From IMG/VR virus record IMGVR_UViG_3300014819_000048, positions 1 through 28,955 of that record: a stretch of DNA of 28,955 bases; one strand, written 5' to 3'. The notes beneath the pieces were generated by a model. That model saw nothing but the letters and a program-made list of their open reading frames with translations. It was not told the origin of the DNA and did no database searches. The position numbers were made by a program, and so were the translations under genes. This DNA comes from a virus. Positions 3,349 through 27,855 of the stretch are shown piece by piece (position 1 is the stretch's first letter; every line of letters begins with the position of its first letter).

Positions 3349-4740
3349 ATGAATTCAAATTCGTTTTATGAGAAAAATACCATACAAAAACATTTTATTT
3401 CTGCTGTTGAAAAAATTGAGTTTAACATCGATAAAATCAATTTTGCTATATCCAATCAAAACCAAACCTACCTACAGAAAAATTCTTACCAATTAATTTC
3501 ACAACTGCTAACGCCTAATAACTCATGGGAACGTATGCTTTATCAAGAGTTACTTGAAATGTGTTTTAAACTGGAACTAAAATGTCAATACAGTAGCCAT
3601 ATGTTTTTAAAAGCTTTTATAGCTTTGGCAAAAGAATATTCAAAGCAAGACAATCTTAAACATATGCAACTAGTGGAAGATAACCAAATAGAAGGAAGCA
3701 AGTACCTTAAAATTATTTTGGATACATGTTATCCGGCAACCGAAAAAGATATCAATTATTTGGTTGATAATATTTCTACTGACCATCTTGTTTCAGAAAC
3801 AATAAAACAAGCAACAAAATTGTCTGGCATTGAAGGTAATATTGTTGTTGAAGATTATAATGGTTCAAACATTGTTGTTGAACTTCAATTTGGATACAAT
3901 TTTAAAGTCAATCCCTTTAAGGGATTTATTCCTTCTTTCGGATCATGGATACGTTCAAATGCAAAAATATTGTTAGTTGATGGTTTGATTGAAAAAGTAT
4001 CTGAAATGGATAATATCCTAAGAAAAAGCTTTGATACAAAGCTTCCATTGATTATGGTTGCTCAAGGATTTTCTGAAGAAGTTATTGCTACTCTTCATGC
4101 AAACAATACCAGAGGTGGTTTTGATATCATGCCAATCAGATTAGAGCAATCATTAGACACACTTAACATGCTTAATGATATTGCTGCTGTGTCTGGATGT
4201 GATGTTGTTTCTTCTTTGAAAGGTGAAATGATTACATTTGTTGATTATGATTCTTTACCGACTATTGAAAAAGCAACCCTTACAAACGGTGTATTAACGA
4301 TAGAAAACAATAAAACTAGAAATCGAGTGCTTTCACATCTTGCATATCTTAATCAAAGACGTAAAGAACAAGCAGAAAACACAACTGTTTCAGATCTTGC
4401 AGATTTGACAACCAAACGTATTCAAAATTTGTTGGCGCACATTGTTAAAATAAACGTACCTAATGGTATGGCAAGGCAATATAAAGCATCATTAGATAAT
4501 GCTATTAGAGCTTGCAGAACGGCTTACACCTATGGCTATTGTAGTCCTAGCAAAATGAATTTAACTAACTTATCAAGTGAATGGAAAAAAATGCATCAAG
4601 CTATGACAAGTCAGCAAACAGATATTCCAGTGTCTAGCATTGGCTTGTATTTATCTGGATGGTATGCTGCTAGTTTAGCAGCAAGTTATTTTACTGCTGC
4701 TGGTGCTGTTGTATCAGCCGTTGATAATTGTGTTAGCTAG
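3349..4740 (+). CDS. Divergent GroEL-like chaperonin
   Basis: This 463-residue protein aligns by eye with GroEL (548 residues) from the intermediate domain onward. Residues 160-200 match the start of the apical domain (GNIVVEDYNGSN for GVITVEDGT). Residues 206-262 match the apical core (KILLVDGLIEKVSEM, then LPLIMVAQGFSEEVIATL, then ANNTRGGFDI). Residues 272-290 (LNMLNDIAAVSGCDVVSSL) match the GroEL block KAMLQDIATLTGGTVISEE. Residues 380-390 match the second intermediate helix, and 425-458 match the C-terminal equatorial helix. The ATPase signature GDGTTT is absent, the GroEL Asp398 position appears to be Asn384, and about 60 residues of the C-terminal equatorial domain are missing. It is likely a substrate-binding or GroEL-modifying protein rather than an ordinary ATP-driven chaperonin. 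SD AAAGGAAA precedes the ATG. The 3' end overlaps the convergent gene by 27 nt. Confidence 0.75.
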   Translation: MNSNSFYEKNTIQKHFISAVEKIEFNIDKINFAISNQNQTYLQKNSYQLISQLLTPNNSWERMLYQELLEMCFKLELKCQYSSHMFLKAFIALAKEYSKQDNLKHMQLVEDNQIEGSKYLKIILDTCYPATEKDINYLVDNISTDHLVSETIKQATKLSGIEGNIVVEDYNGSNIVVELQFGYNFKVNPFKGFIPSFGSWIRSNAKILLVDGLIEKVSEMDNILRKSFDTKLPLIMVAQGFSEEVIATLHANNTRGGFDIMPIRLEQSLDTLNMLNDIAAVSGCDVVSSLKGEMITFVDYDSLPTIEKATLTNGVLTIENNKTRNRVLSHLAYLNQRRKEQAENTTVSDLADLTTKRIQNLLAHIVKINVPNGMARQYKASLDNAIRACRTAYTYGYCSPSKMNLTNLSSEWKKMHQAMTSQQTDIPVSSIGLYLSGWYAASLAASYFTAAGAVVSAVDNCVS

Positions 4741-5307
4741 ATTTGTATGTACTTTGTTTGAAACATACAAACGGATGGATGGGGTATTCTCACAAAGATA
4801 TTTTAAACTTGAAAGTGGAAGTTTTGAAAGTTCTGTTGCTAGGTTTTTAATAACCGCATTTGAATTACCTTCAAGTAAGGTATAAGCTTGAGCTTTTTTG
4901 ATACAAAATTCTAGTAGTTGAACGGAATCGTTCTTATAAAGACTGTATAGACTTTTATCTTTACCAACTCTGTTAATTAACATTCCAGCGGCTTCATTAA
5001 CACATTTAGTTAATGATTCTGCGATGAAAGCATAGTTTATCATTGCAGCTTTAATTGCAGCAGGTTTAGCTTTACCTTCCAAAAGAACATTAGAAGTTTG
5101 TGAAATAAACATATAAAGAGTTGGAACATTGTTTTTGTAAAGTGCTGCAACTTCTTCTAGTTTTTCAATTTTTTCTGCTGCATTAACAGCTTCGTTGCTT
5201 TCTTTTAAGAAAACATCAAAAGGATATACACCTTTTTCAAGTAAGGCAACTCTGGCTTCCATTAATTTTTTTGCTTGATGCTTTTTATATGCCTTTTTTA
5301 TATCCAT
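4714..5307 (-). CDS. Helical protein of unknown function
   Basis: This 197-residue protein is not recognised. It is predicted almost entirely helical, with a basic N-terminus (MDIKKAYKKHQAKKLMEAR) and Ala/Leu-rich helices without a membrane segment or signal peptide. The start at 5307 has TGGAG with 6-nt spacing. Its last 9 codons overlap the end of the convergent GroEL-like gene, and an inverted repeat (4742-4771) lies in the overlap region. It faces a divergent plus-strand gene at 5397 across a short promoter region. No function is proposed. Confidence 0.7.
   Translation of the reverse strand: MDIKKAYKKHQAKKLMEARVALLEKGVYPFDVFLKESNEAVNAAEKIEKLEEVAALYKNNVPTLYMFISQTSNVLLEGKAKPAAIKAAMINYAFIAESLTKCVNEAAGMLINRVGKDKSLYSLYKNDSVQLLEFCIKKAQAYTLLEGNSNAVIKNLATELSKLPLSSLKYLCENTPSIRLYVSNKVHTNLANTIING
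4742..4771. repeat. Inverted repeat just after the GroEL-like stop
   Basis: TTTGTATGT (4742-4750) and ACATACAAA (4763-4771) form a 9-bp stem with a 12-nt loop, 2 nt after the GroEL-like stop codon and inside the convergent gene. Neither strand has a following T-run, so a classical terminator is not supported; it may still protect the mRNA 3' end. Confidence 0.35.
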
Positions 5308-8857: not shown

Positions 8858-9673
8858 TCACTTGATTAATAAATCAATTGGACGAGACACCCATATACCA
8901 TTTACCTTACCAGAGGCTTTTAACGCTTTAACAGTGGCAGGACCGGGAACACCATCACAATCCTTATCTGCAAATCCTAAAGCCTTCTGGCGAGCCTTCC
9001 AAATGATTTTATCGTCATCGTTGTCAAACGCATATGTTTCATATCCAGCATTTTTAAGAGCTTGTTGAAGATATGGACCGGGATCACCATAACCACGATT
9101 TGTTGTTTGATGATAATGAGCATAAACACCAACAACATCTTTACCACAATTGCTTCCAGCAATACGCTTAATCACCCCTTTGGGTGGACAATTGTTTTTC
9201 ATGTCCCAAGGTATTTGACGCTGAATACCAAGTTTTGCTGTTAAAAAATCAATAAACTCTACGGCTTTAGCAATTTGCTCTTCATACAAATCACCATTGT
9301 CATGTTGAACTAATTCAAATCCACAAGTAAACGGATTAACACTTGATGCTTGCCAAGTATAAAATTTAGTTGGATCGTTTTGAACCAACCATTCACCGTT
9401 TAAATCACAGGTAAAGTCCCATGAAACTTGTCTTGTTGTGTTAACTTGATACTTTGCTTGAGCAATATCAATGCTTGTGTTTGGTCCTAAGCCGGGAAGA
9501 AGCTTGCCAAGCTTACCATGAATAGTGTGACAAACAATTCCACGCAACCATAAGCTTCTTGGATTTTTATTTGTTACTTCTTTTAATCCAAGTGTTTTAG
9601 CTTCTGGGTCTTGCCAAGAAATTGTTTTAACACCGGGGATATCTAACTTTTGTTCGTTGATAATAATTGACAT
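8858..9673 (-). CDS. N-acetylmuramoyl-L-alanine amidase (endolysin)
   Basis: This 271-residue protein fits the Amidase_2 (zinc amidase) family. Candidate zinc ligands and catalytic residues are His49 in IVCHTIHG, Glu120 in CGFELVQ, His186/His188 in VYAHYHQTTN and Asp197 in GYGDPGPY. A divergent peptidoglycan-binding domain follows (about 225-255, ARQKALGFADKDCDGVPGP). No signal peptide is seen. It cleaves the amide bond between muramic acid and L-alanine if the assignment is right. Its SD (TAGGAGG, 7 nt from the ATG) is fully paired in an 11-bp hairpin (9677-9711), which should restrict translation. With the gene at 7796 it gives the phage two cell-wall hydrolases. Confidence 0.85.
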   Translation of the reverse strand: MSIIINEQKLDIPGVKTISWQDPEAKTLGLKEVTNKNPRSLWLRGIVCHTIHGKLGKLLPGLGPNTSIDIAQAKYQVNTTRQVSWDFTCDLNGEWLVQNDPTKFYTWQASSVNPFTCGFELVQHDNGDLYEEQIAKAVEFIDFLTAKLGIQRQIPWDMKNNCPPKGVIKRIAGSNCGKDVVGVYAHYHQTTNRGYGDPGPYLQQALKNAGYETYAFDNDDDKIIWKARQKALGFADKDCDGVPGPATVKALKASGKVNGIWVSRPIDLLIK

Positions 9674-9676
9674 AAG

Positions 9677-9711
9677 GAAACCTCCTATAGCGTTAACTAG
9701 TAGGAGGTTTC
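9677..9711 (-). promoter_or_regulatory. Hairpin sequestering the amidase SD
   Basis: GAAACCTCCTA (9677-9687) is the exact complement of TAGGAGGTTTC (9701-9711), with a 13-nt loop. On the minus-strand mRNA the 3' arm contains the complete SD of the amidase gene (start 9673), so the ribosome site is buried in an 11-bp stem. No U-tract follows, arguing against a terminator. Confidence 0.75.
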
Positions 9712-9734: not shown

Positions 9735-10163
9735 TCAAGTACCAGAGAAGGCTAGAGAGCCGCTTTTGCCAATAACAAGAAAGCTCTTACCGTCTGAAAT
9801 AAGTGAAACAGAACTGCCAATTACGTTTGTAACTGCAAGTTTTGAACCATTATTGGTTCCATCAGTAAAAGCTTTTGTTCCATTTGCTTCTTGTGAGCAA
9901 GTGAGAGCATTAGCATACGCAGTTGTTGAGCGGAATGTAAATACTGAACCGGGGCAGCTTGATGCAAGAGGCATTACATATGTCACGGCTGCGACACCAT
10001 TACCAAAAGTAAATGCACCAGCTTGTGCTGCTGAAATTGTAGCTGCTGTTGTAAGAGCAATCACTGGAGCTTGTAAACCACTGATTGTAACTGTTCCAGT
10101 ACCGGCTGGATCATTTGTTGATACTACACCTAATGTTGCGTCAATTGTTGTTGTAACTGCCAT
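9735..10163 (-). CDS. Beta-rich virion-type surface protein
   Basis: This 142-residue protein is rich in Ala, Thr, Ser, Gly and Val with almost no charge, typical of beta-structured phage surface or fibre-tip proteins. The C-terminal half (PGSVFTFRSTTAYANALTC, then GTKAFTDGTNNGSKLAVTNV, ending SLISDGKSFLVIGKSGSLAF) resembles a repeated small structural protein of marine myoviruses, from memory. No signal peptide. The start has AGGAG with 8-nt spacing. It is placed between the holin-like gene and the amidase, so it is probably expressed late. A 140-residue frame on the opposite strand is a shadow. Confidence 0.65.
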   Translation of the reverse strand: MAVTTTIDATLGVVSTNDPAGTGTVTISGLQAPVIALTTAATISAAQAGAFTFGNGVAAVTYVMPLASSCPGSVFTFRSTTAYANALTCSQEANGTKAFTDGTNNGSKLAVTNVIGSSVSLISDGKSFLVIGKSGSLAFSGT

Positions 10164-10222: not shown

Positions 10223-10471
10223 TCATTGAGACTCAGACTTTTCTTCTTCGGTACCTGTTGCTGCTTTGTCTTCGCTCCATCTACGGCCCCAATACAAAGC
10301 AAGAATTGGTGTTAAATAAGCCATAGCTTCAGAACCAGAAAACGCACGAATTTCAATGTTACCAATTTTGGCTACAATAGAAACAGTAAGCCAAAGAGTT
10401 ACAACCACAAATGCAATAACCATCATTGTATATGATGCAGATTTGGTACCTGCTGAATTTTTTAACAACAT
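10223..10471 (-). CDS. Small two-helix membrane protein, holin candidate
   Basis: This 82-residue protein has two hydrophobic segments (about 14-34, YTMMVIAFVVVTLWLTVSIV, and 48-62, AMAYLTPILALYWG) joined by a short loop, then a hydrophilic charged C-terminus (RRWSEDKAATGTEEEKSESQ). Size, topology and position next to spanin-like and endolysin genes fit a class II-type holin. Similar small proteins occur in marine myoviruses, again from memory, often annotated hypothetical. Its SD (AAGGAG) lies in and beside the loop of an 8-bp hairpin (10473-10496) that also contains the stop codon of the upstream gene. Confidence 0.6.
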   Translation of the reverse strand: MLLKNSAGTKSASYTMMVIAFVVVTLWLTVSIVAKIGNIEIRAFSGSEAMAYLTPILALYWGRRWSEDKAATGTEEEKSESQ

Positions 10472-10472
10472 A

Positions 10473-10496
10473 ACTTAGTCTCCTTAACGACTAAGT
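10473..10496 (-). promoter_or_regulatory. Hairpin presenting the holin-candidate SD in its loop
   Basis: ACTTAGTC (10473-10480) and GACTAAGT (10489-10496) form an 8-bp stem around TCCTTAAC. On the minus-strand mRNA the loop reads GTTAAGGA, holding both the stop codon of the upstream lipoprotein gene and most of the AAGGAG SD of the gene starting at 10471. Ribosomes finishing the upstream gene would melt the stem, so this is a candidate translational-coupling switch. Confidence 0.65.
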
Positions 10497-11109: not shown

Positions 11110-11532
11110 TTATTCTCTAACGATTCTTATACCAAAAGTTTCTGTTAATGAATCGGCCATTGCTCTTGGATTGTTATGAAACCTTAGCATCATTTCTTTT
11201 ATTTCTTTTTCTTTTTGCTGAAGAATAATTTCTGTTTCTTTGTCATGACGATCTTGAATTTCTTTCAACATTTGCTGAAAATCTTCTTCGATTTTACGTC
11301 GCTTAACAATTTCTTCTTCAATTTGTCTTGTTAATTGGTCAATGTTTTGTCTGTTAGCTTCACGGGTTCTTTGTTGTTCATCGATCATACGATTGATAAC
11401 ATCTTGTTTTTGTCTTAGAATAACAACGGCATAAAACAAGATTAACCCAAAAACAATTTCTAGCCAATGTTCTTTAAAAAAAGCTTTTACTTTTTCAAAG
11501 AAAAGTTTTGTTTCTAGTTTTTTCAGTTCCAT
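11110..11532 (-). CDS. Membrane-anchored coiled-coil protein, i-spanin-like
   Basis: This 140-residue protein has one N-terminal membrane segment (about 25-42, EIVFGLILFYAVVIL) preceded by a basic/aromatic stretch, then a long highly charged coiled coil (45-125, with heptads such as QIEEEIVKRRKIEEDFQQML). The N-in, C-periplasm topology and composition fit the Rz (i-spanin) family. It is directly upstream of the lipoprotein gene, with 2 nt between stop and next start. Its start overlaps the end of the preceding gene by 10 nt. Whether it partners the lipoprotein or acts separately is inference. Confidence 0.6.
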   Translation of the reverse strand: MELKKLETKLFFEKVKAFFKEHWLEIVFGLILFYAVVILRQKQDVINRMIDEQQRTREANRQNIDQLTRQIEEEIVKRRKIEEDFQQMLKEIQDRHDKETEIILQQKEKEIKEMMLRFHNNPRAMADSLTETFGIRIVRE

Positions 11533-27821: not shown

Positions 27822-27855
27822 AAAAAAAAACTGCCGCCTTCCAGCAGCAGTTTTT
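27822..27855 (-). terminator. Terminator between the two sheath genes
   Basis: On the minus strand ACTGCTGC and GCGGCAGT form an 8-bp stem (one G-U pair; 27851-27844 with 27837-27830) extended by A-T pairs, with a 6-nt loop, followed by nine T. It lies 46 nt after the stop of the sheath paralog. On the plus strand the stem has a C-A mismatch, so it favours leftward transcripts. Confidence 0.85.

Follow-up and report, generated by a model that had tools for sequence, protein, structure and literature searches.

We propose that a hairpin lying over the ribosome-binding site of the amidase gene, a putative endolysin gene, acts as a translation lock resembling the leader of T4 gene e and relieved by a promoter within the hairpin itself; judged from sequence, we give this reading a probability of roughly two in three. 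Transcripts arriving from upstream would carry both arms of the hairpin, and the amidase would not be made from them because its Shine-Dalgarno sequence (SD) would be base-paired. Late in infection, host RNA polymerase together with a phage sigma factor would start at a CTANTTAT-type promoter in the hairpin, and the short transcripts so produced, with their 5' ends near the SD arm and without the 5' arm, would be translated. That the SD is hidden in a hairpin like that of T4 gene e, with amidase synthesis delayed as a result, was the original prediction, and this idea gains support from arms that covary and from a candidate promoter inside the hairpin, an element that the T4 mechanism needs.

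The amidase protein has an N-acetylmuramoyl-L-alanine amidase domain and a C-terminal PG-binding-like region (see Table 1 for the positions of genes and leader elements). Searched alone, the protein gave no Amidase_2 match, and its assignment to the Amidase_2-type family comes from a profile built from 11 relatives, which matches XlyA amidase structures (E 2e-6), and from the relative L191, which matches Pfam Amidase_2 (E 8e-16); the match to PG_binding_1, at 202-251, is weak. In L163 (G005), the C-terminal region of the amidase recurs as a partial second copy at 4957-5220, with 64% identity to residues 184-270. Near the amidase gene in the window (the whole stretch of 28,955 nt that was analysed), positions 11110-11532 encode a protein of 140 aa that weakly matches an Rz-like spanin (phrog_739, E 0.01) and is perhaps part of a lysis cassette. 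A small membrane protein gene at 10223-10471 in the window, a possible holin, is preceded at 10473-10496 by another hairpin, ACTTAGTC-GTTAAGGA-GACTAAGT, with its SD partly in the loop. No relatives were found among bacterial genome contigs.

Table 1. Positions of the amidase gene, its leader elements and related features; positions are those of the window unless a contig is named
Feature	Position	Strand	Basis or comment
Amidase gene, 271 aa, putative endolysin	8858..9673	-	Profile matches
T-rich SD-ATG spacer TTTCCTT, resembling the tail of a terminator	9674..9680	-	T content
3' arm TAGGAGGTTTC, containing the SD	9687-9677	-	SD = 9687-9681
Apical part of hairpin	9688..9699	-	RNAfold; pairs 9699-9696/9691-9688, loop UAAC, C9700 bulged
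Candidate late-promoter box CTAGTTAA	9693..9700	-	One mismatch to CTANTTA[TC]
5' (anti-SD) arm GAAACCTCCTA	9711-9701	-	Pairs perfectly with the 9687-9677 arm
Upstream gene, 142 aa, unknown	9735..10163	-	Its transcript would run into the hairpin
GIY-YIG/NUMOD3 gene with SD hairpin	L153:17051-18004 (G001 38004-)
GIY-YIG/NUMOD3 gene with SD hairpin	L163:13446-14720 (G005 13446)
GIY-YIG/NUMOD3 gene with SD hairpin	G007 6016-

The minus strand before the amidase ATG (9673) reads GAAACCTCCTA-CTAGTTAACGCTA-TAGGAGGTTTC-CTTATG. The stem of 11 perfect pairs and its 13-nt loop are thus present at 9677-9711 as had been described, except that the arms had been swapped: 9701-9711, where the SD had been placed, is the upstream anti-SD arm, and the SD itself ends 7 nt before the ATG (9673-9671). 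The 11 perfect pairs stand, whereas the stem as a whole is longer than had been stated, with four more pairs on top past the bulged C9700. RNAfold gave a minimum free energy of -25.7 kcal/mol for 101 nt (z = -5.5), and none of 200 shuffled sequences folded as low. The relatives L003-L005 have an uninterrupted stem of 14-16 bp closed by a UUAU loop. Folding of the minus-strand leader agreed with the expected occlusion, in that the SD and/or AUG of a long transcript are predicted to be paired in a stable helix, as in a hairpin of the T4 gene e type, with an unpaired probability of about 0 for the SD. Opening the region from SD to AUG is calculated to cost 20.6 kcal/mol as against a mean of 6.6 kcal/mol for 28 other genes, which makes the amidase start the most occluded in the window. 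In nine contigs its occlusion ranks 1, 3, 1, 1, 2, 2, 1, 2 and 1, and in a tenth, G005, where the hairpin has decayed, it ranks 4; these ranks are approximate, the starts having been picked by a simple ORF caller and an SD match. The amidase leader also has the lowest mean folding energy among 42 ortholog sets made from window genes and up to nine related contigs. Ribosomes that reach the end of the upstream gene might open the hairpin, but we think this unlikely because the stop codon of that gene ends 23 nt before the 5' arm.

The original prediction had made its fate depend on covariation of the two arms in related phages, and the arms do covary. In an alignment of nine leaders (the window, L002-L006, L008, L135 and L136), 85% of the cells pair and 9 of the 16 pairs have changed on both sides, and the covariation score was 0.358 as compared with 0.156 for shuffled alignments, none of 500 shuffles scoring as high. 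This alignment was built by hand from the hairpins, with N-padded loops, because MAFFT misaligned the distant ones, and it therefore leans towards structure; a control in which the partner was slid by 1-3 columns partly answers this, as the score then collapsed (0.07 at one column). The changes extend into the SD itself, L135 having CCTCTTGCT/AGCAAGAGG where others have CCTCCTGCT/AGCAGGAGG. Beyond this set, L189, L190 and L192, with 46-51% protein identity, have SD-in-stem hairpins of unrelated sequence, and in L188 the stem of the hairpin takes in just part of the SD. No SD hairpin was seen in the amidase leaders of L187 and L191, and it has been lost from G005 (L006). In L007 (L137; G006) an 11-bp hairpin abuts the start codon and pairs the A of AUG; neither an SD nor the motif described below was recognised in this leader. 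Scanning viral contigs with a DNA pattern of the hairpin proved too loose, since most of what it returned was unrelated sequence.

The loop region of the hairpin resembles a motif, CTANTTAT, that is about 20-fold enriched before the genes of these phages, both tail sheaths included. The density of the pattern CTA[TG]TTA[TC] is 1.11 per kb in sense upstream regions (amidase leaders included), 0.30 in antisense regions and 0.05 in whole contigs. In exact-word counts over six contigs, which exclude the amidase leaders, CTATTTAT was found 18 times upstream of genes as against about 1.5 expected, and CTAGTTAT and CTACTTAT were likewise enriched; these counts rest on crude gene calls and test a motif that had already been noticed. 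In G009, held out in the sense that it was fetched after the motif had been found, the top enriched 7-mers were CTAGTTA (5 versus 0.21) and TATTTAC (5 versus 0.34, one of the copies coming from the amidase leader itself). The motif stands before the sheath gene in the window, G004, G001, G002, G008 and G006, with variation at position 4; the boxes of the last two, whose sheath genes were named from length and order, are CTAGTTAT and CTACTTAT. Other genes that it precedes include one for an HNH endonuclease and the one at 4714-5307 with its orthologs (three boxes of the form CTACTTAT, one CTATTTAT); most of the copies before genes are without a hairpin. G001, G004, G006 and G009 encode a sigma-70 family factor; a beta-prime subunit was sought in these phages and none was found. 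The T4 late box, TATAAATA, is not enriched upstream (4 sense, 12 antisense), and a literature search on the CTATTTAT box as a phage promoter returned nothing relevant. Exact-word counts replaced a 20-wide EM motif search, which drifted to a T-rich signal and to AAATACCTTTAGATATTC and separated sense from antisense poorly. The latter sequence is a second enriched motif, about 26 nt before several genes in the upstream regions of G004, G001 and G003, and is perhaps an early or middle promoter.

In three close relatives (L003-L005), which share ancestry and are thus not independent, the loop region is CTAGTTAT, 18 nt upstream of the ATG. The corresponding box is CTATTTAC in L136, ATAGTTAT in L006 and L008, and CTATCTAT in L135; the window and L002 share CTAGTTAA, a variant that is also found before the tail tube gene of G004 (210762). 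The boxes of the window and others are one-mismatch variants of the motif, and a match with one mismatch is easily come by. Another gene, this one hairpin-less, has a 17-nt spacing and an SD that starts about 6 nt past the box (G004 234952, G001 40259, G003 18475). The motif does not seem to be merely a by-product of pairing, since G005 has kept ATAGTTAT after losing the hairpin. If the start lies 6-8 nt past the box, as with -10-type elements, transcription from the candidate promoter would begin at about 9687-9685, without the 5' arm. Removal of this arm lowers the predicted opening cost from 18-20 to about 3 kcal/mol.

It had also been stated that the hairpin is without a U-tract, which proved only partly correct: a U-rich, terminator-like tail is formed by the spacer UUUCCUU together with the lower A-U pairs. 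Because the spacer is unusually T-rich, the AT-rich copies of the hairpin also resemble an intrinsic terminator. The hairpin might accordingly be an intrinsic terminator that separates the amidase gene from the upstream gene, with the SD in the stem only because stem, tail and ribosome-binding site occupy the same stretch, and with any occlusion a side effect. The A-tract, GC-rich stem and T-rich tail do match the terminators of these phages (AAAGGC...GCCTTT), including those before the sheath and PhoH genes, L135 being a textbook example with GCCTCTTGCT/AGCAAGAGGC-TTTTTT. T accounts for a fraction of 0.70 of the 7 nt before the ATG in the amidase leaders; in 207 leaders of other genes the fraction is 0.30, and not one of these has 6 T among the 7. 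A GC-rich stem followed by a T-tract is, however, seen clearly in L135 and roughly in L002, L004 and L005; it is weak in the window (TTTCCTT), and the T-tract is weak or absent in L008 (TATTTC), L007, L188-L190 and L192. Pairing persists where the T-run does not. Nor does a terminator require an SD in its stem. Since the tail is missing in L008 and the distant relatives, and the C residues in the tail of L003 are matched by G in the opposite arm, the more constant feature appears to be the pairing with the SD, and we regard a terminator with incidental occlusion as unlikely. Termination may instead accompany the proposed lock, since in AT-rich members some of the incoming transcripts may also end at the hairpin with its T-rich spacer. 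Terminator-like hairpins lie in the window at 27826-27855 and 2513-2533, before the sheath and PhoH genes, the former directly followed by a CTATTTAT box.

Conservation of the loop in close relatives (CTAGTTAT/ATAGTTAT) would also be expected if the hairpin were the binding site of a regulator and were thereby stabilised or opened, whether by a ligand or by a repressor protein of the phage, and T4 gene 43 does have an operator hairpin (PMC3014915). We find this improbable, as the same loop sequence is enriched as a DNA motif before many genes, mostly without a hairpin. That motif is likewise left unexplained by a hairpin serving RNA processing or stability, through an RNase III-type cut or protection of the 5' end. 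Such a long perfect stem could conceivably be cut, and cleavage removing the 5' arm would free the SD, but the stem is merely 11-16 bp and this explanation appears quite improbable to us. As for a chance inverted repeat, the window holds three bare 11-bp repeats with loops of up to 20 nt, and shuffled windows average 0.55 (maximum 2 in 20 shuffles), so an 11-bp inverted repeat is by itself weak evidence and not rare. It is the placement on the SD, the high rank among gene starts and the covariation that set this hairpin beyond chance, which we consider a highly improbable explanation.

The translation lock proposed here has a well-studied counterpart in T4 gene e, where long early transcripts fold a helix over the ribosome-binding site that lowers lysozyme synthesis about 100-fold, and where late transcripts are free of the 5' arm owing to the position of the late promoter (PMC3014915). 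Both systems concern a lysis enzyme, here a putative one, and have the SD in the stem of long transcripts, in our case by predicted folding. In contrast to T4, the enzyme here is an amidase with no family match linking it to T4 lysozyme, the box is CTANTTAT and not TATAAATA and lies in the loop, and the T-rich tail is terminator-like. Because TATAAATA is not enriched and a different box is, the leader would work like that of gene e rather than use the T4 late promoter. The leaders of T4 I-TevI and segB and of Aeh1 mobE similarly combine a hairpin sequestering the ribosome-binding site with a nearby late promoter (PMC2988022), a candidate one in the present case, although those are not lysis genes. 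The intrinsic terminators of the same phages share the A-tract, GC stem and T-rich tail with the hairpin, whose stem differs in having an SD and a promoter-like box and whose tail is not kept throughout the relatives. A literature search on endolysin ribosome-binding-site hairpins outside T4-type phages gave nothing relevant. GIY-YIG/NUMOD3 homing endonuclease genes located beside PhoH have their SD in a 9-12-bp hairpin, CCTCTCTA...TAGAGAGG, and both classes of gene that are locked in T4 thus recur in this phage family. In comparison with the window gene for PhoH (1097-2488), the best match in G004 (235790-236584) and in G003 (17637-16840) ends at residue 265 of 463, perhaps because an intron or homing gene interrupts it.

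More tentatively, and on balance doubtfully, the hairpin may combine three functions, terminating incoming transcription, hiding the ribosome-binding site of read-through transcripts and carrying in its loop a late promoter whose transcripts would escape both; such a device would have arisen separately from the T4 gene e leader, with an unrelated lysis enzyme and the promoter of another sigma factor. If the proposed lock is real, the T4 way of silencing a lysis gene until late would be a general solution, reached here with a different lysis enzyme and late promoter. A promoter box inside an SD hairpin would then be a sequence signature for a lysis timing switch in uncultured phages, and the box would serve as a candidate consensus for late promoters in this phage family, of which the collections searched contain no close cultured members.
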